From the IMG/VR virus record IMGVR_UViG_3300025894_001524, positions 1 to 26,539 of that record: 26,539 nt of DNA; one strand, written 5' to 3'. Position 1 is the stretch's first letter; each line of letters opens with the position of its first letter. The notes under the pieces are model-generated. The model did no database searches. It saw only the letters and a list, made by a program, of their open reading frames with translations, and was not told the origin of the DNA. This document shows, one piece after another, positions 3,022-25,389 of this stretch. Source of the stretch: a virus. A program made the translations under genes and the position numbers.

Positions 3022-3039
3022 GTGTATTTATTTAGCAAA

Positions 3040-3047
3040 GATAAATA
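3040..3047 (+). promoter_or_regulatory. Late promoter GATAAATA for the gene at 3053
   Basis: The octamer matches the NATAAATA late element of T4-like phages. With T4 spacing (element at -13 to -6) transcription would begin at 3053, the first base of the ATG, leaving no leader. Confidence 0.65.
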
Positions 3048-3052
3048 TAGTT

Positions 3053-3856: not shown

Positions 3857-3880
3857 CAAAATAATAAATTGTGCTATACT
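3853..3880 (+). promoter_or_regulatory. Sigma70-type promoter with extended -10 for primase-helicase
   Basis: The -35 TTGACA (3853-3858) and -10 TATACT (3875-3880) are separated by 16 bases, with TG one base upstream of the -10 (extended -10, TGCTATACT). The predicted start, 7 bases past the -10, is 3887, the A of the primase ATG. The -35 overlaps the stop codon of the upstream gene. Confidence 0.78.
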
Positions 3881-3886
3881 AGTTAA

Positions 3887-4864
3887 ATGCTAGAAGAAAT
3901 AGTTTCATCTGTACACAGTCTACTAACAGAACATTTGCCAATACGCAATTCTAAAACGCCTAGTGGCTGGATAACCTTTGACTGTGTTATGTGTCCAGAC
4001 AAACGCAAACGTGCAGGAATTATACAGCAAGGTCCTCGTATAAGTTATAATTGTTTTAATTGCGGGTTTAAAACTGGCTGGAGTCCTAGTCCATTCTTAG
4101 GCAAAAAGTATAAGGAAATTGCGTCTAGGTTAGGCGCAGACAATAAAGCAGTTCATGCAGTTCAATTAGATCTTTTGAAGTACAGTGAAGAATTAGAATC
4201 GGCAGAAATAGACACATCGTTTAATTATATAAACAAAAAGTTTGATCCAGTTGAACTACCTGACAGTGCTATAAGTATAGATGACTTGCCTTCAAATCAC
4301 GAACTTGTAGAATATGCTAAAAGCAGAGGAATATATGGACTGTACCCGTTATTACATTTTACAGATTTGCTAAACAAACGTAGAGTAATAGTACCTTTTA
4401 TGTTTAATAATGAACTTGTGGGTTGGAGCGGTAGACATATAGCTCCCCCTGATAAAAACACAGCAAAATATTTACATAATCTGCAACCAGGATATGTGTT
4501 TAACATAGATCAATTTACAGCACAGGAACGAGAAATAATTATTGTGGTAGAAGGCATATTTGATGCTTTGCTTGTAGACGGAGTAAGCATTCTAGGTAAT
4601 AAGGTTACAGCAGAACAGGCACATCTAATAACACAATTAAACAAGCGAGTAATCGTGTGCCCTGACAAAGATGAAGCAGGAAAAGAGTTAATTAAGCAAA
4701 GTATAGCATTAGGTTGGGAAGTAAGTTTTCCTCCCTGGGCACCTGACATAAAAGATGCAGCAGATGCTTGCGCCAAATACGGAAGGCTCGCAACTGTGGC
4801 AAGTATAATTAAACATGCAACAGACAATGATATTAAAAAAGAAGTTAAGATGAGGATGATGTGA
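3887..4864 (+). CDS. DNA primase, T4 gp61-like (zinc finger plus TOPRIM)
   Basis: At 325 aa it is close to T4 gp61 (about 340). An N-terminal zinc-binding domain has CVMC (Cys33, Cys36) and CFNCGF (Cys56, Cys59), which in this family helps recognise the priming site. A TOPRIM catalytic core follows: IIVVEGIFDALLV near residue 218 provides the conserved Glu and VCPDKDEAGKELI near 257 the DxD metal-binding pair. It synthesises the RNA primers for lagging-strand replication and acts with the helicase encoded directly downstream. The helicase GTG start overlaps this gene's TGA (GTGA, 4861-4864), implying coupled translation of the two primosome parts. No Shine-Dalgarno sequence is present; the position is taken up by the promoter -10, so a leaderless mRNA is likely. 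Confidence 0.94.
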   Translation: MLEEIVSSVHSLLTEHLPIRNSKTPSGWITFDCVMCPDKRKRAGIIQQGPRISYNCFNCGFKTGWSPSPFLGKKYKEIASRLGADNKAVHAVQLDLLKYSEELESAEIDTSFNYINKKFDPVELPDSAISIDDLPSNHELVEYAKSRGIYGLYPLLHFTDLLNKRRVIVPFMFNNELVGWSGRHIAPPDKNTAKYLHNLQPGYVFNIDQFTAQEREIIIVVEGIFDALLVDGVSILGNKVTAEQAHLITQLNKRVIVCPDKDEAGKELIKQSIALGWEVSFPPWAPDIKDAADACAKYGRLATVASIIKHATDNDIKKEVKMRMM

Positions 4865-6231
4865 GCGAAATTACAGAATACACAGAAGAAATACAGCATT
4901 TGTTTTTACAATTTTTAGTGAGTGACCCTGATTTGTTTAGCAGATGTCTAAACATCGTGGATGCTGATAATTGGAATCGTAAATTTAAACCCACAATAGA
5001 ATTATTAATGAATCATAGTAAAGACTATAACACGATTCCAACACTGGAGCAAATACGTGCTGTGGGCAAAATTGATATTGAGGTAATACAGAATGTAACA
5101 CCTGAGCATCAAGACTGGTTTCTTAACGAGTTTGAGACTTTTTGTAGGCACAAGGCATTAGAGAAAGCAATCATAGAAAGCACTGATGATTTGGAAAAGC
5201 AAAATTACGGTGCAGTAGAAGACAAGATTAAGAAGGCAGTTCAAATTGGGCTAGTGAAAGACTTGGGACTAGACTATTTTGACAATCCCAAAGAACGTTT
5301 AGAGTGGATTAAAGCACAGAGTGGCGCAACCAGTACGGGCTGGAAAGGCATTGATCAGAAGCTGTATGGCGGCGTAAACAGAGGTGAGATCACAATATTT
5401 GCAGGTGGTTCAGGTTCGGGCAAAAGTTTGTTCCTGCAGAACTTTGGTGTTAACTGGGCATTAGCAGGATTAAATGTTGTTTACATTAGTTTAGAGCTCA
5501 GTGAGCAGTTAGTAAGTATGCGTTTAGACAGCATGGTAAGTGGATATGCAGCAAAAGACATTATGCGTAACATGGATGATGTTGATCTAAAAGTGCGTAT
5601 GAAAGGCAAAAAGTCTGGAAAATTGCGTGTTAAGTATATGCCTAGCGGAATGACAACAAATGATATACGTGTGTTTTTGCGAGAGTATGAGATTCAAAGT
5701 GGTATAAAAGTAGATTGTTTGTTAGTTGATTACTTAGACTTAATGAGTCCTATCAGTGTTAAGATTTCAGCAGAGAATATGTTTGTTAAAGACAAGTATG
5801 TGAGTGAAGAATTGCGTAATTTAGCAATGGAACGTAACCTATTAATGGTAACAGCAAGCCAGTTAAACAGAAGTGCAGTAGAAGAAATAGAGTTTGACCA
5901 CAGTCATATTGCGGGTGGTATTAGTAAGATTAACACAGCAGACAATGTTGTGGGTATTTTTACTAGTAATGCTATGCGTGAGCGTGGTAGATATCAGATA
6001 CAGTTTATGAAAACCAGAAGCAGTAGTGGTGTAGGACAAAAAGTAGACTTAAAATTTGACAAGGATACACTGCGTATTGAGGATTTGGAAGAAGGTGATG
6101 AGGACGCAATGAGTATGACTACAAGCAGCCTTATGTCTCAACTTAAAAAATCAGGCACAATCAAAGATGAACCCAAAGAGGAAAGTGTTGAGAGCAGCTT
6201 GCAGTTAAGAGATTTTCTTAAAAGAAAATGA
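4861..6231 (+). CDS. Replicative DNA helicase, DnaB-like (T4 gp41 type)
   Basis: 456 aa, similar to T4 gp41 (475 aa). The N-terminal ~150 residues are helical as in DnaB-type N domains. The RecA-like motor follows with Walker A FAGGSGSGKSLFLQN near residue 182, an ISLELSE segment (motif H1a, catalytic Glu), Walker B CLLVDYLDLMSP near 289 and the motif H3-like VTASQLNRSAVEE with Gln and Arg near 335. It should form a hexamer unwinding DNA 5'-3' ahead of the fork and recruit the primase. The start is GTG at 4861: it overlaps the primase stop, AGGATG just upstream can serve as ribosome site, and no alternative ATG fits. A late promoter begins within its stop codon, separating the replication operon from the late genes that follow. 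Confidence 0.95.
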   Translation: MSEITEYTEEIQHLFLQFLVSDPDLFSRCLNIVDADNWNRKFKPTIELLMNHSKDYNTIPTLEQIRAVGKIDIEVIQNVTPEHQDWFLNEFETFCRHKALEKAIIESTDDLEKQNYGAVEDKIKKAVQIGLVKDLGLDYFDNPKERLEWIKAQSGATSTGWKGIDQKLYGGVNRGEITIFAGGSGSGKSLFLQNFGVNWALAGLNVVYISLELSEQLVSMRLDSMVSGYAAKDIMRNMDDVDLKVRMKGKKSGKLRVKYMPSGMTTNDIRVFLREYEIQSGIKVDCLLVDYLDLMSPISVKISAENMFVKDKYVSEELRNLAMERNLLMVTASQLNRSAVEEIEFDHSHIAGGISKINTADNVVGIFTSNAMRERGRYQIQFMKTRSSSGVGQKVDLKFDKDTLRIEDLEEGDEDAMSMTTSSLMSQLKKSGTIKDEPKEESVESSLQLRDFLKRK

Positions 6232-6237
6232 TAAATA
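6230..6237 (+). promoter_or_regulatory. Late promoter GATAAATA for the gene at 6266
   Basis: GATAAATACTG overlaps the helicase TGA stop. The expected transcription start near 6243 leaves a 23-base leader containing an AGAGGG ribosome site (6253-6258). Confidence 0.65.
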
Positions 6238-6265
6238 CTGTTAACTATAGCTAGAGGGAATTGCT

Positions 6266-6505
6266 GTGCGTAAAAGTAGAAGCATTCTGGAAGAACTTAA
6301 CCAGATATCAGTTGACAGAGACAGACATCAGGTATTACAGAATCGTGGTGAACACGTTATTATTAGTGCTATTCATCTCATTGAACAGATTGAACAAAAC
6401 TATGACGAACAAACAGCGAAAGATCTAACTAACAGGCTTATTAACAGCATTCGAGGAAGAGACAGCAATAAATTTGCTCGAGGAGTTAAGAAGACTCTCA
6501 ATTAA
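6266..6505 (+). CDS. Conserved small helical phage protein (79 aa)
   Basis: The GTG start at 6266 is preceded by AGAGGG at 6253-6258 with proper spacing, and a late promoter lies 29 bases upstream. The protein (MRKSRSILEELNQISVDRDRH...) is largely alpha-helical and basic, with a C-terminal block NSIRGRDSNKFARGVKK. From memory, proteins with the same beginning (MRKSRS-LEELN) and the same NSI-GRD--KF-RG-KK ending are common in T4-like marine phages. No function is known; late expression points to assembly or the virion. No membrane segment or enzyme motif is visible. Confidence 0.8.
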   Translation: MRKSRSILEELNQISVDRDRHQVLQNRGEHVIISAIHLIEQIEQNYDEQTAKDLTNRLINSIRGRDSNKFARGVKKTLN

Positions 6506-6514
6506 GGCATTGTT

Positions 6515-7033
6515 ATGGCTAAAAACGACAATCTATCTATAAGCGATGATTCTTCCATAACAATTCCATTACGTAACCTTATTGGATTAATTGCTACAGC
6601 AGGTGTTGTAGTAATGGGCTATTTCCAATTAACTGAACGAATCACAATGTTAGAACGTGATTTACATTTAGCAGAACGTTATATAGAACAAAACAGCGAA
6701 TTCCGCATTAAATGGCCATTGGGTGAACTAGGTTCATTGCCTGCTGATGTAATGCAAGACAGCCAAATACTTGCATTAAATAAAGTAGTAACAGCCAATT
6801 CTGACTTTCGTATTAATTGGTCACCACCACCCGAAGTTCAGGAATCAGTTAGAACAAATCACGAACAAGAAATTAGAATTTCTTTCCTTCAAGACCGTGT
6901 AGCAGTTGTAGAAAAGCAACTGTCGTCTATAGGTCAAATGGCAGTAGTTCAAAGTGGACACGAAGCAGAAATTCGAACTCAGGGTGAAAAAATAGAAACA
7001 CTGTTTGATCTCTGGAATTCTAAACCTCAATAA
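6515..7033 (+). CDS. Membrane-anchored coiled-coil phage protein (172 aa)
   Basis: After a short N-terminal region there is one membrane helix (NLIGLIATAGVVVMGYFQL, about residues 21-40), then a long heptad-rich helix running into a NSEFRIKWPLGELGSLPAD block. A near-repeat, NSDFRINWSPPPEV, follows about 40 residues later, and another coiled coil closes the protein. I recall the TEFRIKWPRGE-GSLPAD motif from conserved hypothetical proteins of T4-like marine phages. The topology (N-terminal anchor, extended periplasmic or cytoplasmic rod) would suit a spanin-like or virion tube-associated role, but neither can be shown. It lies nine bases after the previous gene and lacks a strong ribosome site. 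Confidence 0.8.
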   Translation: MAKNDNLSISDDSSITIPLRNLIGLIATAGVVVMGYFQLTERITMLERDLHLAERYIEQNSEFRIKWPLGELGSLPADVMQDSQILALNKVVTANSDFRINWSPPPEVQESVRTNHEQEIRISFLQDRVAVVEKQLSSIGQMAVVQSGHEAEIRTQGEKIETLFDLWNSKPQ

Positions 7034-7037
7034 TTAG

Positions 7038-7066
7038 TTGACACAATATAAAAATTGCTGTATAAT
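7038..7066 (+). promoter_or_regulatory. Consensus sigma70 promoter for the tRNA genes
   Basis: Perfect -35 TTGACA (7038-7043), 17-base spacer, perfect -10 TATAAT (7061-7066). The predicted start is about 7073, two bases before mature tRNA-Pro. This is the ideal host-type promoter layout. Confidence 0.85.
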
Positions 7067-7074
7067 AATTATAT

Positions 7075-7151
7075 CGGAGTATAGCTCAGCTTGGTAGAGC
7101 ACCTGCTTTGGGAGCAGGGGGTCGTTGGTTCGAATCCAGCTATTCCGACCA
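7075..7151 (+). tRNA. tRNA-Pro (anticodon UGG)
   Basis: A complete cloverleaf: acceptor arm CGGAGTA (7075-7081) pairs with TATTCCG (7141-7147) with one G-U; anticodon stem CCTGC/GCAGG encloses loop TTTGGGA with anticodon TGG at 7109-7111; the T loop GGTTCGAATCC is canonical. The 3' CCA is encoded (7149-7151) after discriminator A. It reads CCA and wobble proline codons. It is transcribed with the tRNA-Gly eight bases downstream. Confidence 0.96.
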
Positions 7152-7159
7152 ATTTAACT

Positions 7160-7233
7160 GCGGGTATAGCATAGTGGTAATGCTGCGGCCTTCCAAGCCT
7201 CAGAGTGGAGTTCGATTCTCCATACCCGCTCCA
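7160..7233 (+). tRNA. tRNA-Gly (anticodon UCC)
   Basis: Acceptor arm GCGGGTA (7160-7166) pairs perfectly with TACCCGC (7223-7229), discriminator T, encoded CCA (7231-7233). The anticodon loop is CTTCCAA with TCC at 7192-7194, and the T arm GGAGTTCGATTCTCC is canonical. The anticodon stem GCGGC/GCCTC has one C-U mismatch in its second pair. It reads GGA and GGG glycine codons, of which GGA is favoured in AT-rich genes. Confidence 0.94.
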
Positions 7234-7253
7234 ATAATTAAGAGTTGAACTCA

Positions 7254-7364
7254 ATGAGTTTTTTATTAGAAGCAATAGCGATAATCATTGTAGTAACGTT
7301 GACATTGTATGCAGTCGCTTGGGCTGTTATAAACGATGATTCGGATTCACTAGACGATAAATAA
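7254..7364 (+). CDS. 36-aa single-pass membrane microprotein
   Basis: ATG at 7254 opens a 36-codon frame, MSFLLEAIAIIIVVTLTLYAVAWAV then an acidic tail INDDSDSLDDK, ending with TAA at 7362-7364. The hydrophobic core of about 20 residues predicts one membrane helix with an N-out or N-in short end. It lies between tRNA-Gly and the giant gene, and the late promoter of that gene overlaps its stop codon. The clean hydrophobic-then-acidic pattern supports coding. Function unknown; small lysis or membrane regulators look like this, but nothing proves it. Confidence 0.6.
   Translation: MSFLLEAIAIIIVVTLTLYAVAWAVINDDSDSLDDK
7356..7363 (+). promoter_or_regulatory. Late promoter GATAAATA for the giant gene
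   Basis: GATAAATA lies across the stop codon of the preceding microprotein; AGGAGA follows at 7371-7376 as ribosome site for the ATG at 7383. Confidence 0.65.
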
Positions 7365-7382
7365 AAATACAGGAGAATGGTT

Positions 7383-10300
7383 ATGGAAATAAGTAACAAT
7401 TCGTCTGGACAGGATGTTCTCGTAATCAGCAAGGATGCTGAAGACAGGATAAAAGAATTATTAACACCTGAATTACTGGGGCAACTTGGTATTTCAGTAA
7501 ATGCAAACATACAAGATATTGTAGGTTTTTTATTAAAAGAATTTGATTTAACTCTGGAAGAATTACTAGAGTTATCTTCATCAGAATTATATGACTTACT
7601 TGCACTAGCTGTAGTATTACCTGCATTTAACCAGCAGTTTTCTGATAAAGAATTACTAGCAGAATTACTACCGGATGACGTAGCAGAATTTGATTTTGAT
7701 GCGTTAGATCTAAATAACTTAGAAGCAACAGCGGCAGGTGGTTCAGAGGAAACTGGTGAAGGTGGTAGCACAATTGTTCAAGCTGAACGAATAGACACAG
7801 CAGGTGACGAAACCTCTGCACTAGCACAGGAGTTGCTCAACACAGAGCAAACACAAAACAATGATAATACACTATTACAACCAGACCAAACTACTCCTAC
7901 AGATAATAATAACAGTGACAATAGTGTTATTGATGATTCTGCTGAGGGAACTAATGAGACTACTCAGACCAATGTGGAAGCAGAAAATACAACCGTTGAT
8001 GAATCTAGTGAAAGCACAGGTACAGAAACAGCGAGCGAAACTGAGACAACTGAAAGCGCAGTAACGGAGGAAGTCAGCGATGAAACGTCTGATACTAATA
8101 CTGAAACAACCGATAGTACTAATGTCAATAGTGATAATACTGCTAGTACTGGAGGTAACGATAGCAACGATGGATTAACAACTGACACATCGGACACTGT
8201 AGAGGATAATACAAATGAAGACACTAGCACTGAATCTACTGCTGGGGACACTGACAATACTAGTGATAGTGGGGATAATAGCACTGAGCAATCAGTTGTG
8301 GACACTAACGAATCCGCCTCAGACAGCACAACTGACTCAGAATCAAATACAAACACTGAAGGATCTGGACAGAATGATGCAGACCAAAATACAGCAGGCG
8401 CAAGCGCAGGCACAGACACGAGCGAACCAGAATCAACTACACCGGATACCGGACCTACCGATAGTACCACCACTGAATCTGAGCAGCAAGCAGATACAGG
8501 AACAGATACTGAGTCATCGGGACAAACAGACAATAGTGATACTTCACAACAAGAAGAAGTATCATCAGGAGCAGATACAGAAAGCGGAACGTCAGATCAA
8601 ACAAATACAGACCAGACAAATGTTATAGAGGATAATAATGATAATGCATCTCCTATTGAAACTGATCAGGAAGATTCCTCGGGAACCGTTCCACTGGATG
8701 GGACTAATGTTGATACCGTTGTCGATGGCGGCACTAATGATGCTGGGAGTGATGATTCCACTACTAATTTGGAAGGCAATGTAAATGATACAACAGATCA
8801 AACTAATGACACACCAACTGATACAGGAACTGCCACTGATACTGGATCCCAAAGCACTGAAGATAATACTTCAGATAATAGCGGGACAAATGATGTTGAT
8901 GGGAACAATAGCTCTAATGATACAGGCTCACAAGATACTGTAGAGATCCAACCTGTTGTAGAAACAAATCGCACAGAACAAACGGTTGTTACAGAAGAAA
9001 TAACTTTTGGTGAATCAGTAACCCAAACAGAGTTTGAAGATACTACCCGAGATAATTTAGAGTTACGAGTTTATACTGATACAATTACAACTCCTGTTAC
9101 AACAACATCCACTAGCATAACCAGCACAACTATTTCTTACAGTGATGGTACTACAGAAACAATTCAACAAGAGCCAGTGGTTACAGCAAGCACAACTGAG
9201 AATGTGGAAATAGTTTCCAGAGAAGATATTACGAATGCAACTCCATTATTAGTAGAGCAATCTTTCACTATTGACGCAGGACAATCTATTACAGGTAATA
9301 TTTTTGAAGGTGGTGCGCCAGGTGATGGACCGTTCACTGTAGAGATTTTAAATTCCACAACTTCCTCATCATTAGAAATTGATGAACAGGGTAATTTTGT
9401 ATATACTCCTGATGAAAATTACAGTGGCCTAAACAGAACACAGATCACAGTAACTGATGCAGATGGTGAAACCAGTGTTGCTAGATTTACCTTTAGTGTT
9501 ATAAGTAACACCTTTAGTGCAAACTTGGCATCCGATTTACCTGACACAATACCAGATGCAGCAGACGACAACTATACTATAGTTGAAGGGACACAAGTTA
9601 CTAGTAATCTATCTAGCAACGACAGCATTGAGGATCCTGACTCTGTTTTCGAACTGCTAACTCAGCCGGAAGTTGGTACGGTAACATTACGACCAAATGG
9701 TGTTTTTCTTTATACTGTTGACGAAGGTCTTACAGGAACACATACTTTTACATACCAAATAGTTGACTCTAACGGCGATACTAGTTCTGCAACTGTAACA
9801 ATGACTGTTCTAGAGAAATCAGTGACCAGTGTTGTTGACGAGATAGTGTTATTAGATCAAACAGTAATTGATTTAAATCCTGTAGTAACAACAGAAGAAA
9901 CAGACGTAATTTCGGTTACAGAAATTAACACAGAAGATCGTACTGAAGTGACAACTCAAACAGGTTATTATGCTGATACTAGCACTATTGAAACTGTTAC
10001 AACCACTATTACGAAAACCGTTACTACTGTTTCATACAATAATAACACGCAAGACGTAAGCGAAACTGACCCAGAAACTGTGATTACTTCAGAATTCACA
10101 GCTACCACTGCTGACAGAGAAGAAGTATTGTCAGTAGAAACACTGGAAGTAGAGCCTGTTATTACTTATGAGGAAACTGTAGATGTTACTGTGGGAGACA
10201 CGCTAACAGAAACCACTTACGAAGACGTAACAACCAGAGAAAACGATTTAGAGAACAATGTAGAAAACGTAACCATAACACGTAACTACACTGACGTTAA

Positions 10301-13300
10301 CAATACTGATACAACTACCGTTACAACCACAACTCCTGTGTACACGTATACATTTAGTGATGGGACTGAAGTAGTTGAACTGGGTGAACCTGACATATTA
10401 ACAGAAGTAACAACTGAAACCACAACAGATTCCCGCAGTGAAGAGATTTTTACTGGCACTGAAGAACCTGTTATTACTACTGAAGACGAAGTAATTACTG
10501 ATGTTGTAGTGAGTGAACCAGTGCTTACAACAACCAGTAGCGAGCTAGTGACATCAGAAGTTAATAATGAAGATCGTACTTATGTAACAACAACTGACAT
10601 AACTTATGTAGATACAACATCAGTAACTACAACAACAACTACAACTATTACGCCAGTGTTTACTATTACATATTCAGATGGCACAACAGAAACAGAACGT
10701 GGCGAAAGTGTAGTCACAGAAACAGCAGATGTAGCGGAGACGGCAGAGACTAGAACAGAAAGCGAAACTGTAACAGTGGATGCGGAAGTGACAGTTACAA
10801 CTGCAACAACCACAGAAGTTATTCCTGGCGAGCCTACATCAGTTACTGAAAGAGGTGAAGGTGTTACTGTAATTGAAAATGATTTGGAAAATCAAATAGA
10901 AAACATAACGGTTAGTTACTCGCCAATTACCACAACTACTACGCCTGTAACAAATATAGAAACCACTGTTACAACAACAGTGTATACATATCCAGATGGC
11001 ACTACCACAACTGTAACTGAAAGTGTTGCAAGCACCACATACGATCAAACTGTGGTAGTTGATCAGCAAGCCACAGAATATGAATACAGTTCACGACAAC
11101 CTGAACTAGTAGTTACTTATGAGGAAGTTTCTGAAACTGTTGTAGGCGACACCACACTGGAAACAAGTTATGTGGATGACACTGTTACAGAAAATGATCT
11201 AGAAAACAATGTAGAGAATGTGACTGTTACTAGAACGCACACTGATGTAAATTCGACACCTACAACTGTGATCATCACTGTTACTCCAATTAGCACTTAC
11301 GCTTACAGTGACGGCACAGTTGACGTGCAACGCGGTGATCCTGCTATTACTGAAACTGTTAGCACAGAGATAGTCACAACAACCAGGGAAGAAATCATAT
11401 TTACTGGTGTTGAACAACCTGTTATTGAGACTGCATACACTGTGGTAGTAGAGGAAACTCAGGGAGAAAGTGTTACAGAAACCACATACGTTGACACGCC
11501 TGTTACTGAGATCGACCTTGAGGCTAAAACTGAGACAACCACTACTACTAGAACATACACGGATGTAACTACAACTCCTGTCACAACAACCACAACTACT
11601 ACTCCAGAATATACTATTACATATTCGGACGGCACTGTGGAAACAGAAACTGGCGAAGCTGTGCAAGAAATTAGCACAACTAATGATGTATTTACAGCAG
11701 AAAGATCAGAAGATAGTGTTTCAGAAATTACAGTTACGCCTGTGACAACAATAGATGTTGTGGAAGAAGTTGCTGTTACTGTTAGTGAACCAGAACGGGT
11801 ATCTACTGATACAACCACCGTTAGTCAGGATTACGAAGCTCACACGGAAACAACTACAGTAACCAGAGATTATACGGATACTATTGTAACAACTACAACA
11901 ACAAACATATTTTTAACGCCTACAGATACTTATACCTTCACTGACGGACAACAGGTTGTGATAGTAAGAGACACTGTAAGCAATCAACAAAATGTTGGTG
12001 TACCAACTACAACTGAAGGGTCTTTTGTGGTTAGTGAAACCACTGTGGACATTGAGCCTGTGATTACTTACACTACAGTAGTAGAAGAAGTTGTAGGCGA
12101 TCCTGTTACTGAAACAGTGTACCAAGATGTTGAAGGTAAGCAAATTGATTTAGAAAATAATATAGAGAACGATACTGTTACTCGCAATTTTACTGACACG
12201 ATTACCACAACAACCACAACAACAGAAACAACCACAAGCCTATTGACTTACACTTATTCAAACGGCGAAGTTAGAACAGTTCAGGGCGAAACAACACAAT
12301 CAGTTAGCACTTCAGATAGTGTGGATGTTGTTGAGCGTAGCGAAGTAATTTACGAAGGCACAACACTACCAGAAATAGAAACTACCTATATTACCGCAGT
12401 TACAAATGAAACAGGTGAAAGTGTTACTGAAGGTGTTTATAATGACGTAACCACAGTCCAAAACGATACAGTAGCACACACTAGTACTACAACTGTTACT
12501 AGAAATTACACTGACACGATTACTACCCCTAATACTGAAACAACAACTATTACGCCTGTGTATACACTTACATATTCAGATGGGTCAACAGAAACAGAAT
12601 ACGGTACGCCTGTTGTTACAGAAGTTGTAACCAATTCAGTTGAAGTAGTAGAGCGCTCAGAGACTATTAACGAAACTACAGCAGATGCAGTATTAGTTAT
12701 TACTGATACAGTGACAACTGAAAGTGTACCAGGAACTCCTGTTACTGAAACAACTTTTAGTGATGCATCCGAAACAGTTAAGGATACGGAAAAATTAACC
12801 GAAACTACAACTGTCACTAGATCATATACTGATAACATTACTACGCCAACAGTTACCACAGTAACAACTGTACTCACATACACATACACTTATGCAGACG
12901 GTGAAGTGCAAAGTATTGAAGGCGATCCCACTGTTGGCAGCAGCACAACGTATGCAACTGAAACTGTGGAACGTTCAGAAGTAATATCCACAACCACAGT
13001 GAACGTCCAACCTGAAACAACTTACGAACAAACTGTTACCACAGTGGTAGGTGATCCAGTTATTGACACAGTGTTGATAGATTCAAGTACAAGTAGATTC
13101 ATAGACACTGACAACAACAGGGAAGATGTTATCACTGTTGATACATATCAAACTACTACCACAGTAACAACTGTGGTTACAACAGAAACAACACCTATTT
13201 ACACTTATACCTTTAGTGATGGCACTGTGATAGTTACTAACGGAGAGATCACAACTCAAGTTGAAACCAGTAACGCTGTGGATGTTGTGACCAGCACAGA

Positions 13301-15023
13301 ATCAGACACAGTGTATGAGCAGCCAGTAATTACTGAGGAAGTTATATCCACAGTGGAAGTCACCAAGGACACAGGTGAAATTGTTACCACTTACACTGAT
13401 GAGATTGTGGTTGAAAATGATCTGGATGCTAATAAGGAGATTATTACAACGACCAGGACGTTTACAGATGAGACGACTACTCCTGTAACAACAACTACTA
13501 CCACGTACACTGAATACACATTAACCTATTCAGATGGTACTGTAGAGAAAGAACAGGGTGTTAGCACAGTTGAAGCAGTTAATAGTTCTGAAGTAACAAC
13601 TGCTACTAGACAGGAAGTTTACACTGATACTGATGTGCCTGATTTGGTAGTTACTTACGACGTGGTCACGGAAGTTACTTCTGGCGAAACTGTTAGTGAA
13701 ACAGTTGACACTGATACAGTTACTAGAACAATTGATTATGATAGCAATCAAGAGTCAGTGGTTACTGTTACAGTAAGTGTAACAACAAACACAACTCCAG
13801 TAACAACAACTGTTACCACAACACCAGTCAACACTTACACTTACAGCGATGACACAATAGAAGTTGAACGTGGAACCAGTGTGGTTGAAAGCACAACTGT
13901 TGACACTGTTACACAGGATACAACAACTACCAGTGATACTGAATACGAGCAGCCAGTTATAACGACCTCTGAGCAACAGGTAGTTACAACTGTGGTTGGA
14001 GATACAACCACTGAAACAACCAGTTCTGATGAAACAGTAACATCAAAAGATGTACCTAACAAAACTGAGACTACCACAGTTACTAGGTACTTCACAGACG
14101 TTGCTACAACTCCTACAACTGAAACTACAACTGTGACTCCTGTTTATACGTTAACATACTCAGACGGATCAACAGAAACAGAATACGGTACTAGTACCAG
14201 CACAGATGTGGTTACTACAGACAGTGTGACTACCAACAGAGAAACTGTAATATCAGAAAGCACAGTTAATATTGCACCTGTTGTCACGTATACTGTAACA
14301 GAAACTGAGGTAACATTAGATCCAGTGTTAACTGATACACAGGAATCTACCACAGTAACAACAGTAGAGGACGAAGAAAACGAGCGGGATGTTATAACAA
14401 CCACCGTAACAACAACGGAAACGTTTAGCACTGAAACACAAACCACAACAGAAACAACACCCGTAAGCACTTACACTTACAGTGACGGCACTGTGGTTGT
14501 TCTAACGGGTTCTACCACAAGTGAAACAATCAGCACTTATGAAAGTTCTCAAACAGTTACTAGCGAGGACACTGTTACCTATGAAGAATGGCCTGATGAT
14601 GAAGGCGATGGCAACAATGGTCACGGTAACGATGAGGATGGTACTGACGAAAGCAATCCTGGCAACAGCAACGGCAACAACGGCAACAACGGCGACAATA
14701 GCAACAACGGCGGCGGATCAGATGCTAACAATGGTTTTGGAAACGGAGACCAAGAAGCACCTGGCGGCAGTGAAGACAATAACAATGCTGAAAACTCCTC
14801 AGATGATGACACAGAAGAGGAAGAGGAAGACGAAGAAAGTAAAGGCAACGGCAAGGACAAAGACAAAGACAACGGTAAGGGCAAAATGAGTTACAATGAC
14901 TTAATAGAAGAGGAGGCAGACGAAACTGTCCCTACTGGTACTGGCTTTGATGCAGGTTTAGAGGCTGCCATATACACAGATTTGCCAAAGTTTGAAACTT
15001 ACACAGATCCCGATATAATCTGA
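7383..15023 (+). CDS. Giant repeat protein (about 2546 aa), putative virion fibre/adhesin
   Basis: Two ATGs lie downstream of AGGAGA (7371-7376); the second, at 7383, has proper spacing, the first (7377) directly abuts it. Layout by residue: 1-118 acidic and helical (leucine-rich LEELLELSSSELYDLL); about 119-520 a low-complexity acidic Ser/Thr/Asn/Asp/Glu linker; about 520-600 one copy of a Thr-rich unit; about 622-810 two cadherin/Ig-like beta domains (NFVYTPDENYSGL, DADGETS, then FLYTVDEGLTGTHTFTYQI, DSNGDTSSA); about 810-2400 fifteen further units of ~106 residues, each with a poly-Thr run and a Y-[ST]-DG-T hairpin; then a Gly/Asn/Asp-rich stretch, a K/D-rich stretch and a distinct C-terminal tail. 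No cysteine was noticed. Late promoter and strong ribosome site suggest an abundant late product. A long surface filament binding host or particles is the best guess; location in the virion is not shown. Confidence 0.9.
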   Translation: MEISNNSSGQDVLVISKDAEDRIKELLTPELLGQLGISVNANIQDIVGFLLKEFDLTLEELLELSSSELYDLLALAVVLPAFNQQFSDKELLAELLPDDVAEFDFDALDLNNLEATAAGGSEETGEGGSTIVQAERIDTAGDETSALAQELLNTEQTQNNDNTLLQPDQTTPTDNNNSDNSVIDDSAEGTNETTQTNVEAENTTVDESSESTGTETASETETTESAVTEEVSDETSDTNTETTDSTNVNSDNTASTGGNDSNDGLTTDTSDTVEDNTNEDTSTESTAGDTDNTSDSGDNSTEQSVVDTNESASDSTTDSESNTNTEGSGQNDADQNTAGASAGTDTSEPESTTPDTGPTDSTTTESEQQADTGTDTESSGQTDNSDTSQQEEVSSGADTESGTSDQTNTDQTNVIEDNNDNASPIETDQEDSSGTVPLDGTNVDTVVDGGTNDAGSDDSTTNLEGNVNDTTDQTNDTPTDTGTATDTGSQSTEDNTSDNSGTNDVDGNNSSNDTGSQDTVEIQPVVETNRTEQTVVTEEITFGESVTQTEFEDTTRDNLELRVYTDTITTPVTTTSTSITSTTISYSDGTTETIQQEPVVTASTTENVEIVSREDITNATPLLVEQSFTIDAGQSITGNIFEGGAPGDGPFTVEILNSTTSSSLEIDEQGNFVYTPDENYSGLNRTQITVTDADGETSVARFTFSVISNTFSANLASDLPDTIPDAADDNYTIVEGTQVTSNLSSNDSIEDPDSVFELLTQPEVGTVTLRPNGVFLYTVDEGLTGTHTFTYQIVDSNGDTSSATVTMTVLEKSVTSVVDEIVLLDQTVIDLNPVVTTEETDVISVTEINTEDRTEVTTQTGYYADTSTIETVTTTITKTVTTVSYNNNTQDVSETDPETVITSEFTATTADREEVLSVETLEVEPVITYEETVDVTVGDTLTETTYEDVTTRENDLENNVENVTITRNYTDVNNTDTTTVTTTTPVYTYTFSDGTEVVELGEPDILTEVTTETTTDSRSEEIFTGTEEPVITTEDEVITDVVVSEPVLTTTSSELVTSEVNNEDRTYVTTTDITYVDTTSVTTTTTTTITPVFTITYSDGTTETERGESVVTETADVAETAETRTESETVTVDAEVTVTTATTTEVIPGEPTSVTERGEGVTVIENDLENQIENITVSYSPITTTTTPVTNIETTVTTTVYTYPDGTTTTVTESVASTTYDQTVVVDQQATEYEYSSRQPELVVTYEEVSETVVGDTTLETSYVDDTVTENDLENNVENVTVTRTHTDVNSTPTTVIITVTPISTYAYSDGTVDVQRGDPAITETVSTEIVTTTREEIIFTGVEQPVIETAYTVVVEETQGESVTETTYVDTPVTEIDLEAKTETTTTTRTYTDVTTTPVTTTTTTTPEYTITYSDGTVETETGEAVQEISTTNDVFTAERSEDSVSEITVTPVTTIDVVEEVAVTVSEPERVSTDTTTVSQDYEAHTETTTVTRDYTDTIVTTTTTNIFLTPTDTYTFTDGQQVVIVRDTVSNQQNVGVPTTTEGSFVVSETTVDIEPVITYTTVVEEVVGDPVTETVYQDVEGKQIDLENNIENDTVTRNFTDTITTTTTTTETTTSLLTYTYSNGEVRTVQGETTQSVSTSDSVDVVERSEVIYEGTTLPEIETTYITAVTNETGESVTEGVYNDVTTVQNDTVAHTSTTTVTRNYTDTITTPNTETTTITPVYTLTYSDGSTETEYGTPVVTEVVTNSVEVVERSETINETTADAVLVITDTVTTESVPGTPVTETTFSDASETVKDTEKLTETTTVTRSYTDNITTPTVTTVTTVLTYTYTYADGEVQSIEGDPTVGSSTTYATETVERSEVISTTTVNVQPETTYEQTVTTVVGDPVIDTVLIDSSTSRFIDTDNNREDVITVDTYQTTTTVTTVVTTETTPIYTYTFSDGTVIVTNGEITTQVETSNAVDVVTSTESDTVYEQPVITEEVISTVEVTKDTGEIVTTYTDEIVVENDLDANKEIITTTRTFTDETTTPVTTTTTTYTEYTLTYSDGTVEKEQGVSTVEAVNSSEVTTATRQEVYTDTDVPDLVVTYDVVTEVTSGETVSETVDTDTVTRTIDYDSNQESVVTVTVSVTTNTTPVTTTVTTTPVNTYTYSDDTIEVERGTSVVESTTVDTVTQDTTTTSDTEYEQPVITTSEQQVVTTVVGDTTTETTSSDETVTSKDVPNKTETTTVTRYFTDVATTPTTETTTVTPVYTLTYSDGSTETEYGTSTSTDVVTTDSVTTNRETVISESTVNIAPVVTYTVTETEVTLDPVLTDTQESTTVTTVEDEENERDVITTTVTTTETFSTETQTTTETTPVSTYTYSDGTVVVLTGSTTSETISTYESSQTVTSEDTVTYEEWPDDEGDGNNGHGNDEDGTDESNPGNSNGNNGNNGDNSNNGGGSDANNGFGNGDQEAPGGSEDNNNAENSSDDDTEEEEEDEESKGNGKDKDKDNGKGKMSYNDLIEEEADETVPTGTGFDAGLEAAIYTDLPKFETYTDPDII
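9000..14600 (+). repeat. Protein-level tandem array: 16 Thr-rich units, ~317 bp period
   Basis: The Y-S-D-G-T hairpin codons recur at about 9138, then at 10034, 10352, 10670, 10987, 11304, 11622, 11937, 12254, 12572, 12891, 13211, 13527, 13841, 14157 and 14477. From the second copy on, spacing is 314-320 bases, so the unit is about 106 codons. Between copies 1 and 2 there is an excess of about 580 bases holding the two Ig/cadherin-like domains. Nucleotide identity between units is only partial. Each unit shows ENDLENN--N-T-TR-YTD, a Thr run, Y-Y-DGT, an acidic strand and TY-E---V-GD. Confidence 0.85.
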
Positions 15024-15029
15024 TAAATA
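15022..15029 (+). promoter_or_regulatory. Late promoter GATAAATA for the gene at 15062
   Basis: GATAAATA overlaps the stop codon of the giant gene. The start expected near 15035 gives a leader of about 27 bases with GGGAGA (15051-15056). Confidence 0.65.
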
Positions 15030-15061
15030 ACACTAAGTTAAGTTAGTTGTGGGAGACAAAC

Positions 15062-15400
15062 ATGGCTGGTAAAAAGAAACACACGGTAAATCTACCTGAA
15101 AGTGCCGATACCAATGGTGACGGGCACATATCTGACGAAGAATTAGAATCACATTTAAACCTAGAGCATAGACGTAAAGAACTTGAAGATTTAGATGCAA
15201 TGAGAGATGCCCAACGCAAGATGACATGGTTTGCGTTATTCGGTTTATTGTTGTATCCATTCTGTGTAGTGCTTGCAGTTGGATTCGGGTTATCAAGTGC
15301 AGCAACAATTTTGGGCGATATGGCAGCAACGTACTTTGTGTCAGTTGCAGCTATTGTAGCAGCATTCTTTGGCGGACATGCTTACACAACTAAGAAATAA
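15062..15400 (+). CDS. EF-hand-bearing membrane protein (112 aa)
   Basis: The start is ATG 15062, five bases after GGGAGA; an upstream TTG would place the ribosome site inside the gene. The protein begins MAGKKKHTVNLPES and then has DTNGDGHISDEE, a complete EF-hand loop with Asp1, Asn3, Asp5, Gly6, Ile8 and Glu12 of the canonical calcium site. After a charged helix come two membrane helices (WFALFGLLLYPFCVVLAVGF and TYFVSVAAIVAAFFGGHAY). I recall similar MAGKKKHTVNLPESADTN proteins in T4-like cyanophages, function unknown. A single EF-hand beside a two-helix hairpin could mean calcium-sensitive membrane insertion, a holin-like role or a structural one; none is shown. Late promoter controlled. 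Confidence 0.88.
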   Translation: MAGKKKHTVNLPESADTNGDGHISDEELESHLNLEHRRKELEDLDAMRDAQRKMTWFALFGLLLYPFCVVLAVGFGLSSAATILGDMAATYFVSVAAIVAAFFGGHAYTTKK

Positions 15401-15403
15401 ATA
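15396..15403 (+). promoter_or_regulatory. Late promoter AATAAATA for the gene at 15434
   Basis: AATAAATA begins within the last codons of the previous gene and lies 30 bases before the ATG, with AAGGAAA (15421-15427) as ribosome site. Confidence 0.5.
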
Positions 15404-15433
15404 ATTAGACAGTATACATAAAGGAAATACACA

Positions 15434-16147
15434 ATGTACAGAGTAATCATAGGAATTATACTATGCTTCTCTACTATGTACACACACGCAGAGCCAATAA
15501 TTGATCCGCCGTTGCCAGGTGAGTTGCCAGGTGATGAAAGAGAATCGCAACCGGCTCCAAATGATAATCGCCAGGAAGGTGATTTGAATACTAACACACA
15601 AAATTCTGTAGTAGACAGCAATAATAAAAGTACCACAAACATAGGTGCAGGCGCAGGCAGCCCGACACCAGTCACAACAGCCATAGCACCATCTCTTATG
15701 AGTAGTGGCAGCGATACGTGTTTACAAAGCAAGTCAGGCGGCATGCAATTATTAGACATGGGTTTATCAGCTGGTGCATACAAACAAGATGAAGAGTGTA
15801 ATAGACGCAGGGATGCGAAAATGTTTAAAGATCTCGGTATGACTGTTGCAGCATTAAGCCGTATGTGTCAAAATGACGAGAACTGGAAAGCAATGTTCAT
15901 GTCAGGTTCTCCATGCCCGATTATGGTGAACGGCAAATTGGTGTTTGGTAAACGTGCTGTTTTAGCAATGAAAACAAACCCAGAAGTGTACATCCCTCAG
16001 TATAAAAACAGAAAAAATAAAGCCTTCTATGACGCCGTATTAGGCATAGGGAATGAGGAATCAACTAATGGGAACGAAAATGAAAATGTTGCTACTGTTA
16101 GTGTTAGCGAGCGTTTCAGGACAAGCTCACGCAAATCAGTGGAATAG
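15434..16147 (+). CDS. Secreted phage protein with conserved cysteines (237 aa)
   Basis: A Sec signal peptide is clear: basic start, hydrophobic VIIGIILCFSTMY and cleavage at THA-EP. The mature protein has a Pro/Asn/Ser-rich linker for about 75 residues, then a domain with several cysteines: DTCLQSKSGG, DEECNRRRDAKMFKDLG, SRMCQNDENWKAMF and GSPCPIMVNGK. Two disulfides in the periplasm would fit. The C-terminal part ends in a low-complexity Asn/Glu run. From memory the QDEECNRRRDA pattern is shared with proteins of other T4-like marine phages, sometimes annotated as structural. Export is odd for a virion component, so envelope association or a role at lysis or exclusion is possible. Its last 80 bases overlap the next gene in another frame. 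Confidence 0.85.
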   Translation: MYRVIIGIILCFSTMYTHAEPIIDPPLPGELPGDERESQPAPNDNRQEGDLNTNTQNSVVDSNNKSTTNIGAGAGSPTPVTTAIAPSLMSSGSDTCLQSKSGGMQLLDMGLSAGAYKQDEECNRRRDAKMFKDLGMTVAALSRMCQNDENWKAMFMSGSPCPIMVNGKLVFGKRAVLAMKTNPEVYIPQYKNRKNKAFYDAVLGIGNEESTNGNENENVATVSVSERFRTSSRKSVE

Positions 16148-16970
16148 TATTGATCAGCTAGTAACAGCTAGTGGAGACATCAGAGACACATTTGATATGG
16201 GTATTAAAAGAATAGCTGGCCTCGGGTCGTTAGCAGCAACAGGTGAAATACACACAACAGACGGTATGTTAGATACTGACGCCGCAATTACTGAACAAAA
16301 ACGTGTAGCTTATAATGCAGCTCTTGAAGCAGTACAAGCTGATATTTTTTCTAAAACTGCTGCTGAATATTTTACTGAACAAGCAGATAATAAGGCTGTC
16401 GACTTTGATAATGCGGTTAATGCATTCGTATCAGCAACAACCCCAGTTATCATGGCCACTGAAATCAGTGTACGATCATCAGAAGCACAACTTAGTGGTG
16501 ACAACGCAGTTGCTAAAGAATTACAACAGGTAATTAATAATGATCCTGCATACATTTTAACAACCACTGAAGTAGTTGCCTACAACGATTCGCTTACAAC
16601 AGTTGAACTTAGAGCAGAGCAATATGCAACTGCTGTAGCAATCAGAGATAACCAACAGTTTGTTGACAATTTTCAATCTCAGGCAGATGCATTTGGTCTT
16701 GACTTTATTGATGCAAGTGATCTAGTATTATCACGATTTGGTAATGATGCACCGGAGATTGATTATCCAGCAGCACATGTTTCATTTTTAAACGCAGCAA
16801 TGACATTAACACAAGACGTAACTGCTAACTTCACAGCAACAACTGAATTGGTAGAATCGTGGGGAGAAGCAGATTCGTTTTATACTACTGGTCCTACAGC
16901 AGATCAATGCTTTTTTGCTACGGAAGTACAAAGAAATGACCCTGGTCATCCTTGTTACATACCATCATAA
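16068..16970 (+). CDS. Secreted hypothetical phage protein (300 aa)
   Basis: Possible ATGs lie at 16053, 16068, 16080 and 16086. 16068 is chosen because GAGGA (16055-16059) is well placed and MGTKMKMLLLLVLASVSGQAHA makes a standard signal peptide cut after AHA. The mature protein is Ala/Thr/Asp-rich and largely helical (EQKRVAYNAALEAVQADIF, VAKELQQVINNDPAYIL), with only two cysteines, both near the C-terminus (DQCFFATEVQRNDPGHPCYIPS). It starts inside the preceding gene, 80 bases of which are read in two frames; both products carry signal peptides, so they may act together outside the cytoplasm. No family is recognised and no catalytic motif seen. Confidence 0.82.
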   Translation: MGTKMKMLLLLVLASVSGQAHANQWNSIDQLVTASGDIRDTFDMGIKRIAGLGSLAATGEIHTTDGMLDTDAAITEQKRVAYNAALEAVQADIFSKTAAEYFTEQADNKAVDFDNAVNAFVSATTPVIMATEISVRSSEAQLSGDNAVAKELQQVINNDPAYILTTTEVVAYNDSLTTVELRAEQYATAVAIRDNQQFVDNFQSQADAFGLDFIDASDLVLSRFGNDAPEIDYPAAHVSFLNAAMTLTQDVTANFTATTELVESWGEADSFYTTGPTADQCFFATEVQRNDPGHPCYIPS

Positions 16971-16976
16971 TAAATA
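16969..16976 (+). promoter_or_regulatory. Late promoter AATAAATA for the gene at 16996
   Basis: AATAAATA overlaps the preceding stop codon; AGGAG (16984-16988) lies seven bases before the ATG. Confidence 0.5.
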
Positions 16977-16995
16977 ATACAACAGGAGAACACAC

Positions 16996-17538
16996 ATGGC
17001 AATAGAAGATATGGAATTAGACGTTGGCGGTACCAAGATTAAAGGAGTTTGGATCGCCATCCTCTTTTCATTTGCAAGCACAATAGGCGGCGGCATTTGG
17101 GCCGCCTCTGAATTCTTTTCCCGCTTATCAGCATTAGAAGAAACAGTCCAACAAGCACTTACTCAAAGCGAAATAACTAGCACTCGTTTTGATGATTTTA
17201 AAGAAGTTATTGATAAACAAGTTAACACTGTTAATGTTCAAATGGGTCAGGTATCACAAGAACTAGAGGACAACGATGTTAGTGGACTTCAGGGAAAACT
17301 TGCTACACTGGGCGCTAACTTAGAAACTATCATGGAACGTCAACGTGAACTGATTGCTATACAAGAACGTGTTGTACAAGTGGAAAAACAAATCACTGAA
17401 ACAGCAACGTTAGTGCAAAAAGCAGAAAACATGATGCAAGATGCTGACAAAATAAACAATAAATTAGAACGTATACAAAAAGAAATAGAAGAAATTTGGG
17501 AAGGCATGGATTTTTTAGCTAATCCGTACTCTTCCTAG
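16996..17538 (+). CDS. Membrane-anchored coiled-coil protein (180 aa)
   Basis: An acidic start (MAIEDMELDVGGTKIKG) is followed by one membrane helix (VWIAILFSFASTIGGGIWAA, about residues 18-37). A long helical rod with heptad patterns continues to the end (LEETVQQALTQSEITSTRF ... VEKQITETATLVQKAENMM). There is no signal cleavage site, so it is an anchored protein with one bulk domain. Similar one-helix coiled-coil proteins are encoded at 6515 and 25794. The gene has a late promoter and a strong AGGAG site. In T4-like marine phages such genes are found among structural genes. It could be a spanin-like or tail-associated protein; the function is not established. Confidence 0.85.
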   Translation: MAIEDMELDVGGTKIKGVWIAILFSFASTIGGGIWAASEFFSRLSALEETVQQALTQSEITSTRFDDFKEVIDKQVNTVNVQMGQVSQELEDNDVSGLQGKLATLGANLETIMERQRELIAIQERVVQVEKQITETATLVQKAENMMQDADKINNKLERIQKEIEEIWEGMDFLANPYSS

Positions 17539-17545
17539 ATAAATA
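17538..17545 (+). promoter_or_regulatory. Late promoter GATAAATA for the gene at 17576
   Basis: GATAAATACATAC overlaps the previous TAG stop; AGGAGA at 17564-17569 is the ribosome site for the ATG at 17576. Confidence 0.65.
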
Positions 17546-17575
17546 CATACATAACTAACACACAGGAGAAGCAAT

Positions 17576-19066
17576 ATGCCTTCCAGCATACCATTTGACT
17601 CTAGTTTAGTACTAGGGGAAATTATCAAAAAAGACAGAATCGAAGCGTTAATGAAGATTTCCGCAGCACAAGCACCAATTGATGCAGCACAAGAAAAACT
17701 TAACAACTATTTAAAAACCAAGCGTAGTTTAGACATGACTCGATTAGAGTTAGTAAATCTAAATATTGACGACAAAGCATTAAAAGAAATTGATGATGCA
17801 ATGGTTGCGCTTGATAAAGATATTGCTGACGCCGCCAAAGATTACGTAAAAAAATCAGCAACAGGACTAAAAAACGTTGCGGAAGCAAAAACAGCAGCAG
17901 GCGCACAAGCAAATGGATCAATGATTGCTTACTCAGTTGAATCACCAGTTGATTGGGATAAATCATCACTTAAGACGTTTCCTATCAGTTCCGACTCAAT
18001 GATATTAGATGCACAATACATACGTAACGAGTCACAAGCAGATGGCAGTGAAGCTCACGCAAAAGAAATTGCCAGTCATGCAAGCATACAGATATCAAGT
18101 ATATTTGGTGGCAAGGTAGCCAGCAGTGCAGCATCAAGTGTAGCAAGTACAGCATTATCTCAAGTAAGCAAACATACGGTTGCTGGTACTTTAGTTATTA
18201 CAGCAGTATGTACACATAAAAATGCACAGTTGTTTGCACCAATGGTACTGACCCCAGAGAAAGCAGTTGATGCCTGGAACTTCTGCAGAGAAGATGACAA
18301 ACTGGATACAGATTATGCTGGTCTAACTGCGGCGATTGAAGAAGGCGAGACTAAAGCAAAATCTCCACCTATTAATGTATTGAGCGGTGTTACATATGGT
18401 TCTAGCTTTGTAGGCATGGTTCACGTATTACAAGCAGAAGCAACAACCAGTTCACAAACTTCAGAAGCAATGACTGCTGCCATGGAAACACAGTTTAAAG
18501 CAGGCATGTGGTTTAGTAAAGCACAAGGCAAGTTTGGTTTAGATCAGCAGTTTAGCAATAATATCAAGGACATGTTAAGCACCAGTGACGTTGAAACACA
18601 TTGTAGTGTTGTAACAATGGGCTTGATTCCAACTCTCAAGAGCAATGCTATTAAGACATCTATCAGCCAATTGCAACCTAGTGCAGATGAAATCATGAGT
18701 CAAATAAATGCAATTCAGGGCGCCACTAACAAGCGTGTTGGCACAATGGGTTCAGAAGCAAACGACGGCAAAGTTGGGGCAGGATTTAAAGACCTTAATC
18801 AAGACTATACTAGTAGTGTTGTATCATCATTAAGCAAAGTAGACAATGAAAATAATCGTATTATTGACACCAACAGCTTGATGACTGCGTTTGATGACTA
18901 TGTTGATCTTGCACACAACAGCGAAATTGGTGTGCCCATTAACTTTTATCTCAAGCCTATATCTAAAGCAGAAGTTGCACGTATCTACCAAAATGAATTT
19001 CAGGTACCTAATCCAGCACAAGATGTAGAAGCACCAGTTGTGCCAGCACCAGCTGATGGCAACTAA
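17576..19066 (+). CDS. Conserved virion structural protein of T4-like marine phages (496 aa)
   Basis: The N-terminal third is helical: FDSSLVLGEIIKKDRIEALM, AQAPIDAAQEKLNNYLKTKRSLDMTRLELVNLNI. This pattern (S-LVLG-I, AQAPIDAA, KRSLDMT) is one I recall from predicted structural proteins of T4-like cyanophages. The middle is Ala/Ser-rich and beta-like (SSIFGGKVASSAASSVASTALSQVSKHTVAGTLVITAVCTHKNAQLF), and the C-terminal part again helical. No signal peptide or membrane helix. Strong AGGAGA site and late promoter imply abundant late expression. A Rho-independent terminator follows, closing this transcription unit. Its exact location in the particle is unknown. Confidence 0.85.
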   Translation: MPSSIPFDSSLVLGEIIKKDRIEALMKISAAQAPIDAAQEKLNNYLKTKRSLDMTRLELVNLNIDDKALKEIDDAMVALDKDIADAAKDYVKKSATGLKNVAEAKTAAGAQANGSMIAYSVESPVDWDKSSLKTFPISSDSMILDAQYIRNESQADGSEAHAKEIASHASIQISSIFGGKVASSAASSVASTALSQVSKHTVAGTLVITAVCTHKNAQLFAPMVLTPEKAVDAWNFCREDDKLDTDYAGLTAAIEEGETKAKSPPINVLSGVTYGSSFVGMVHVLQAEATTSSQTSEAMTAAMETQFKAGMWFSKAQGKFGLDQQFSNNIKDMLSTSDVETHCSVVTMGLIPTLKSNAIKTSISQLQPSADEIMSQINAIQGATNKRVGTMGSEANDGKVGAGFKDLNQDYTSSVVSSLSKVDNENNRIIDTNSLMTAFDDYVDLAHNSEIGVPINFYLKPISKAEVARIYQNEFQVPNPAQDVEAPVVPAPADGN

Positions 19067-19087
19067 ATCCTAGTTGTAAAAAACATA

Positions 19088-19131
19088 AATCCTGATAAAT
19101 AGTATTAACTATTATTTGTCAGGATTTTTTT
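19088..19131 (+). terminator. Rho-independent terminator enclosing a late promoter
   Basis: AATCCTGA (19088-19095) pairs with TCAGGATT (19119-19126), an inner ATAGT/ACTAT stem (19099-19103, 19108-19112) closes an ATTA loop, and a run of T residues follows to 19131. The late promoter GATAAATA (19094-19101) lies in the left arm, and the AGGA that serves the next ATG (19132) is in the right arm. Confidence 0.75.
19094..19101 (+). promoter_or_regulatory. Late promoter GATAAATA for the gene at 19132
   Basis: The octamer lies in the left arm of the terminator hairpin. Transcription from it should start near 19107, after that arm, so the resulting RNA lacks the 5' half of the hairpin. Confidence 0.6.
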
Positions 19132-25365: not shown

Positions 25366-25389
25366 CTGTAAACAATGGGAACACACACA

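Follow-up and report, generated by a model that had tools for sequence, protein, structure and literature searches.

A giant threonine-rich repeat protein in the late region of a marine phage, with relatives in three other phage lineages

The DNA analysed here, referred to below as the window, is a 26,539-nt fragment from a marine relative of the jumbo phages, known from a single metagenomic contig (IMG/VR record IMGVR_UViG_3300025894_001524). A large part of it is given over to one gene on the + strand (7383..15023), which the initial annotation had already picked out and which proves to be one uninterrupted open frame encoding a giant Thr-rich repeat protein of 2546 amino acids plus the stop codon. 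A second in-frame ATG is found at 7377, and the spacing of an AGGAG site fits a start at 7383. By composition the product has a net charge of about -449, contains no cysteine and is poor in lysine, and its start does not resemble a signal peptide.

The protein is laid out in clearly distinct blocks. A Leu-rich N-terminal region of about 121 residues (aa 1-121; 7383..7745) matches no family; beyond this record, it is known from just two nearly identical contigs that belong to the same virus. It is followed by an acidic linker made up of T, D, S, E, N and G (aa 122-515; 7746..8927), whose 394 residues include 99 D+E and a single K+R, in good agreement with the acidic linker of some 400 residues described earlier. 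A detached repeat unit (aa ~517-617; 8931..9233), recognised by profile and by its Y-x-DGT anchor at aa 586, stands before two Ig-like domains at 9330..9810 (Pfam Big_9, E 2.5e-23, and Cadherin_5, E 1.6e-13; NCBIfam tandem-95). Domains of this kind are frequent both in adhesins and in phage structural proteins. A degenerate first unit (aa ~827-915; 9861..10127), in which SYNNNT (aa 885) replaces YSDGT, leads into the array proper, defined by anchors and profile as 14 contiguous units of about 106 residues (aa 917-2395; 10131..14567). The region after the array is acidic and rich in Asn and Gly; it contains the motif ANNGFGNGDQEAPGGSEDNNNAENS (14715..14801) and ends in an acidic KDKDKDNGKGK-rich stretch and a short C-terminal tail (14802..15020). 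The proposal that this end of the protein is conserved holds for ANNGFGNGDQEAPGGSEDNNNAENS, which is common to a homologue in another phage (79% identity over 29 aa, 23/29), but not for the last residues, for which the viral scan returned no relatives.

The array keeps time with considerable regularity. Its Y-x-DGT anchors fall at aa 991, 1097, 1203, 1308, 1414, 1519, 1625, 1731, 1837, 1944, 2049, 2154, 2259 and 2366, a spacing of 105-107 aa or 315-321 nt, where 314-320 bases had been noted from the sequence. The 16 units originally counted are made up of these 14 good ones, the degenerate unit one period upstream and the detached unit. Autocorrelation of the array peaks at lags of 317, 106 and 212 aa (z 8.7, 6.5 and 6.2 against other lags), and threonine accounts for 30% of its residues. 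Pairwise identity between units is only 18-53% at the amino acid level and 33-56% at the nucleotide level, and Tandem Repeats Finder detected no array of ~106-residue period; taken together, these two results indicate that the array is not the product of recent duplication, the conclusion already drawn in the initial annotation. Two further contigs match the giant-gene stretch at 99.9%, up to 8428 and 9278. Since both end before the main array, only one assembly supports the exact number of copies. Three sequence differences fall within the gene, one of the three nonsynonymous; these few sites all lie before the array.

No family for the unit emerged from Pfam, NCBIfam or PHROG, in line with the first impression that it belongs to none. 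A weak Big_2/LigB match (E 0.25) was lost with a larger alignment, and a Gp5_trimer_C match (E 0.017) seen in 1 of 22 units was treated as chance. Profile-guided viral scans did recover homologues in three other phage lineages, with 8, at least 4 and 3 units (loci L006, L007-L010 and L109/L110). Profile-based scans were needed for this: a first viral scan with a single unit found no homologues, and tblastn queries with the whole giant protein, two units and the N-terminus matched none of 50,697 phage records, a null result that does not show absence because low-complexity filtering hides Thr-rich sequence. Two scans of genome contigs yielded 58 and 244 pattern matches, none of them confirmed, and the family may have bacterial members. 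As an independent control, a profile was built from the eight L006 units alone, without window sequences. It matches 12 window units with domain E values of 5e-10 to 1e-19, and its maximum over 400 composition-matched shuffles (200 whole-region and 200 local, using the window's own residues) was 3.8 bits. The units are homologous across phages, and their likeness is not a composition effect. The suggestion that the period is under selection is likewise upheld, the same ~106-residue period being found in three other phage proteins.

The homologues differ considerably in size and in what accompanies the repeat. On the 359-kb contig of L006, the protein has 1330 aa, eight units, a Cadherin_5 domain and a Gly-rich C-terminus. 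L007-L010 comprise four contigs, 100-230 kb in size, whose sequences at the locus are identical; their homologue carries at least 4 units, a Big_9 domain and a GKDKD-rich tail, plus a frame break at ~9780-9850 that is identical in four contigs of different sizes and may represent either a shared assembly/repeat collapse or a real disruption. The L007 contig also holds, at 12663-13733, a UDP-glucose/GDP-mannose dehydrogenase-like frame that continues into an intein splicing domain. The third homologue (L109/L110, contigs of 42 and 89 kb) is a 731-aa protein with three units and a ANNGFGNGDQEAPGGSEDNNNAENS-type post-array motif. The 89-kb contig is T4-like by its gp19-like tail tube, baseplate, gp32 and gp59 genes, and the homologue gene adjoins gp32, gp59 and a baseplate gene; the L006 and L007 homologues are not among recognisable tail genes. 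Across these proteins, the repeat is retained together with Ig-like or Gly/Asn-rich parts in varying combination, and the N-terminus differs between phages. Phage C48C1, considered as a further relative, has only a cadherin-like domain in common and was set aside.

The L110 protein has a FecR domain (Pfam E 2.1e-7) at its very N-terminus and no signal peptide. This domain matches the LapA retention-module model in NCBIfam with E 1.8e-7, below the model's cut-off, and PDB entry 5ix9, 'Antifreeze protein', with E 3e-4; it is 34-36% identical to FecR proteins in the curli clusters of phages HTVC008M and Melnitz. Two loci, L111 3946-8347 and L112 3948-8026, hold FecR proteins inside phage curli clusters and share the FecR domain with the L110 repeat protein.

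AlphaFold2 models were obtained for single chains, with one unit on a 15-row alignment and two units on 13 rows; most phage fibres are trimers. In the one-unit model (pLDDT 92.1) strands occupy residues 12-41, 46-76, 82-86 and 90-109, and in the two-unit model (pLDDT 93.8, pTM 0.51) residues 12-23, 27-41, 46-76, 82-113, 116-129, 133-147, 152-182, 188-192 and 196-216. Since strand 82-113 leads into 116-129, the third strand of one unit would continue into the next. The unit is thus modelled as three very long strands (~30 residues each), and the predicted assembly is a stiff, continuous thin rod running head to tail. Estimated from strand lengths and not from coordinates, its length would be roughly 10 nm per unit, or 130-160 nm for the array.

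Fold comparison gave no strong library match for the unit (Z 4-5 at best). G5 rows of SasG, Aap and IgA1 protease recur at Z 3.4-4.8, tied with pore-forming hairpins, and the G5-E matches comprise 3tiq (Z 4.0-4.3), 4wve (Z 4.3-4.8) and 8deo (Z 3.7-4.0). MACPF/perforin matches were rejected, as nothing but long hairpins is matched and the rmsd runs to tens of angstroms. The best viral fold matches are A0A6J5R861 and A0A6J5L9T3 (25% and 21% identity, probability 1.0), two 'Autotransporter beta-domain' proteins of ~610 aa from uncultured Caudovirales phages; that name may stem from automatic annotation, and the two are probably further members of the repeat family. SasG is built of single-layer triple-stranded sheets in which G5 (78) and E (50) modules alternate (PMC4458895). 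Like the G5-E stalks of SasG and Aap, the giant protein is Thr/Val/Glu-rich and is predicted to place tandem all-beta, long-strand units in an extended stalk; unlike them, it has a single 105-107-residue period with no alternation of modules of 78 and 50, is encoded by a phage gene and lacks a sortase anchor. A G5 match was found in none of 22 units at E up to 1, and in no single or triple units at E up to 5. The modelled arrangement is SasG-like, but no unit matches the G5 model, and Z values below 5 are no proof of a shared fold.

A T4-type late-promoter-like motif, GATAAATA, is located at 7356..7363 on the + strand, 27 nt before the ATG at 7383. RATAAATA occurs at 13 sites in the window against 4.15 expected, a count that 0 of 100 shuffles reach, and 12 of the 13 are + strand sites. 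Each of these 12 precedes a start codon by 13-39 nt, and positions in that zone make up ~3.7% of the window. Late-promoter-like sites are found at 3040, 6230, 7356, 15022, 15396, 16969, 17538, 19094, 23686, 24103, 24850 and 25358. The recurrent form of the motif is GATAAATAc.taTAA, with G (or A) where the T4 consensus has the first T, and no exact TATAAATA is present upstream of the giant gene. Among the homologues, AATAAATA lies 25 nt before the start of the L110 gene, and no late-promoter-like motif was found directly before that of L006. The reading of this element as a phage late promoter is well supported by the site counts. Because of the late-motif statistics and the flanking homologues of PA5oct virion proteins, the giant gene is predicted from its sequence context to be expressed late, together with virion genes. 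A small ORF of ~35 aa with one membrane segment (7256-7363) separates the tRNAs from the giant gene and has a stop that overlaps the motif.

The surroundings of the gene are those of a known group of large phages. Window positions 2083-6505 are colinear with Pseudomonas jumbo phage PA5oct and Sinorhizobium phage Phosso, and the homologues of 3053-3856 and 25375-25794 are the MS-detected PA5oct virion proteins EST35_0222 and EST35_0234. An antisense gene at 2650-3021 (-), between overlapping + genes, is kept in PA5oct, Phosso and 62 relatives. The repeat is absent from PA5oct and Phosso, and likewise from the contigs of 20 relatives. A helicase scan identified 180 related viral contigs. At 47 of 78 loci examined, homologues of 6266-6505 and 22463-23212 lie only 1.2-4.4 kb apart, compared with 15.96 kb in the window, and at nine loci the homologue of 19132-21750 follows the first flank directly or with overlap (-85 to -13 nt). 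The 47 relatives' loci keeping both flanks contain none of the island protein genes, and no tRNA was found in 25 loci tested. The short flank spacing and the missing genes mark 6506..19131 as a lineage-specific island of ~12.6 kb in the late region, containing two tRNAs, the giant gene and several membrane/signal-peptide genes. A search of its edges for direct repeats of at least 9 nt found none.

In the left part of the island, at 7038-7233, a perfect sigma70 promoter (TTGACA-17-TATAAT) directly precedes the tRNA-Pro(tgg)/tRNA-Gly(tcc) pair. The next gene after the giant gene (15053..15400, +) encodes a small protein that gives a weak EF-hand-like match and seems to contain two membrane segments. 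Further on are a signal-peptide-like protein of the marine-phage family PHROG 20531 (15434..16147, +), whose relatives in roseophages CRP-207 and CRP-810 are encoded two genes ahead of lysozyme, and a membrane and coiled-coil protein with a weak Rz-like spanin match (16996..17538, +). Judged by such matches, the other island genes look envelope- or lysis-related. To the right, the 872-aa gene at 19132 contains Ala/Gly/Pro minisatellites (20222-20332 and 21074-21369; 15-, 18- and 21-nt units) that are 94-100% alike, in contrast to the diverged units of the giant gene. Relatives also have other giant genes downstream, variable in size and encoding up to 1663 aa (L039 16445-21374, L078 10799-15790), with PHROG matches almost all of unknown function.

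The best explanation of the protein starts from what is directly supported, namely the gene, its period, unit homology across four lineages, the late-promoter motif, the island and the flanking virion genes. We give an even chance to a late-made extender stalk, an end-to-end beta-rod that is adhesive or reaching outside the cell and slightly likelier to sit on the virion than on the infected cell. The gene would be expressed late, when virions assemble, and its 14-16 units would be linked in series to give a single thin, uninterrupted beta rod, the third strand of each running into the first strand of the next; this head-to-tail joining of long-strand units is an AlphaFold2 prediction, and we infer the extracellular place, adhesive role, length and virion attachment. 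Attachment and display would fall to the two ends, one with the Ig-like domains and acidic linker close by, the other formed by the acidic Gly/Asn-rich tail, and the rod would most likely act extracellularly, as a fibre that adheres or reaches out. An adhesive stalk outside the cell is probable because distant versions occur in three phage kinds, one of them fused to an adhesin-like anchor.

A virion fibre is favoured by the late timing, the length, the lack of a signal-peptide-like start, the flanking virion genes and the example of MIJ3, a sister of PA5oct with long, thin, kinked tail fibres (PMC6892783). It is placed slightly ahead since tests for a retention module and RTX were negative for the window protein and no exporter was found in the possibly fragmentary records. 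The likeness to PA5oct/MIJ3-like jumbo myovirus tail fibres lies in the replication and structural genes around the island, which are colinear with PA5oct; the giant protein differs in having no sequence relation to any tail-fibre family (no match for the whole protein in PHROG or Pfam), and PA5oct is without the giant gene.

That said, a secreted adhesin is suggested just as much by the adhesin-like N-terminus of L110 and by homologues that do not lie in recognisable tail clusters. Such a phage-encoded surface adhesin, plausible if somewhat short of an even chance, would be released late in infection, either by a type I-like route of the host or when the cell lyses, and would tether infected cells, debris and new hosts, much as in the 'sibling capture' proposed for pelagimyophages, whose curli genes lie between replication and structural modules (PMC7029224). 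It draws on the resemblance of the L110 FecR domain to the LapA retention module and 5ix9, on the relation of that domain to FecR proteins of phage curli clusters and on the position of the L110 gene, which occupies a similar kind of place to those curli genes, next to gp32, gp59 and a baseplate gene. RTX-type exported proteins are usually acidic, Lys-poor and Cys-free; the giant protein is very acidic and shares these traits, and the island also carries signal-peptide and spanin-like genes. The window protein itself, however, has no retention module or FecR domain, and its C-terminus matches no known secretion-signal family. Neither an ABC-transporter/HlyD family nor CsgG was found in the window, L110, L006 and L009 records, which may be fragments; controls were positive, with CsgG detected in HTVC008M and Melnitz. 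A surface adhesin would depend on a host transporter.

The adhesin-like layout seen at the outset is supported by comparison with RTX/LapA-type adhesins such as MpAFP, which are likewise very long, acidic, Cys-free proteins with an extender repeat of ~104-106 residues and bacterial Ig-like domains in tandem (here two Big_9 at 9330-9810); the retention-module-like N-terminus of the L110 homologue is a further point of likeness. The repeats of MpAFP are near-identical Ca2+-bound Ig folds (PMC4083281), whereas neither model nor sequence makes the unit here Ig-like, and searches of the window protein for RTX repeats and a C-terminal type I secretion signal gave no family match. The curli/FecR clusters of pelagimyophages and methylophages (HTVC008M, Melnitz) are alike as phage-encoded genes for fibres of extracellular type, but their FecR proteins have no repeat array. 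It is conceivable, though we hold the idea only tentatively and think it rather unlikely, that phages have domesticated a LapA/MpAFP-like adhesin plan with a stalk fold of its own, 3 to 16 units long and island-borne between unrelated large phages. The late protein would then be displayed by the dying host or borne on the virion, keeping neighbouring cells within reach, and the island would move within hypervariable late regions.

Much less probable is an acidic decoy, acting inside the cell or after lysis as a DNA-mimic-like or polyanionic sink, in which the repeats supply only charge and length. The net charge and the linker would suit it, but unit spacing and beta pattern are conserved across lineages and the fold is confidently predicted, neither of which a charge sink needs, and the late-promoter motif suits virion or lysis genes better than an early defence against the host. 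Least credible of all is that the array is unfolded, drifting low-complexity sequence whose period is left over from old duplications, for which its Thr content and unit identities as low as 18% might speak. Against it stand the detection of units by profile across phages, with clean shuffle controls, a spacing kept strictly at 315-321 nt while the units diverged, a single 7.6-kb frame and only one nonsynonymous change among the three differences in the gene (few sites, all before the array).

For the extender stalk, then, what is new is the repeat family; the kind of device is already known. Absent from the libraries searched, the family spans four lineages of large aquatic phages, and the continuous long-strand rod predicted for it is unusual and confidently modelled (pLDDT 92-94). 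The empty site in 47 relatives indicates that the giant gene island is optional cargo, which is probably tied to host or lifestyle. The locus links phage late genes to parts of bacterial adhesins, and provides a clonable object for asking whether such phages make very long virion fibres or sticky infected cells.
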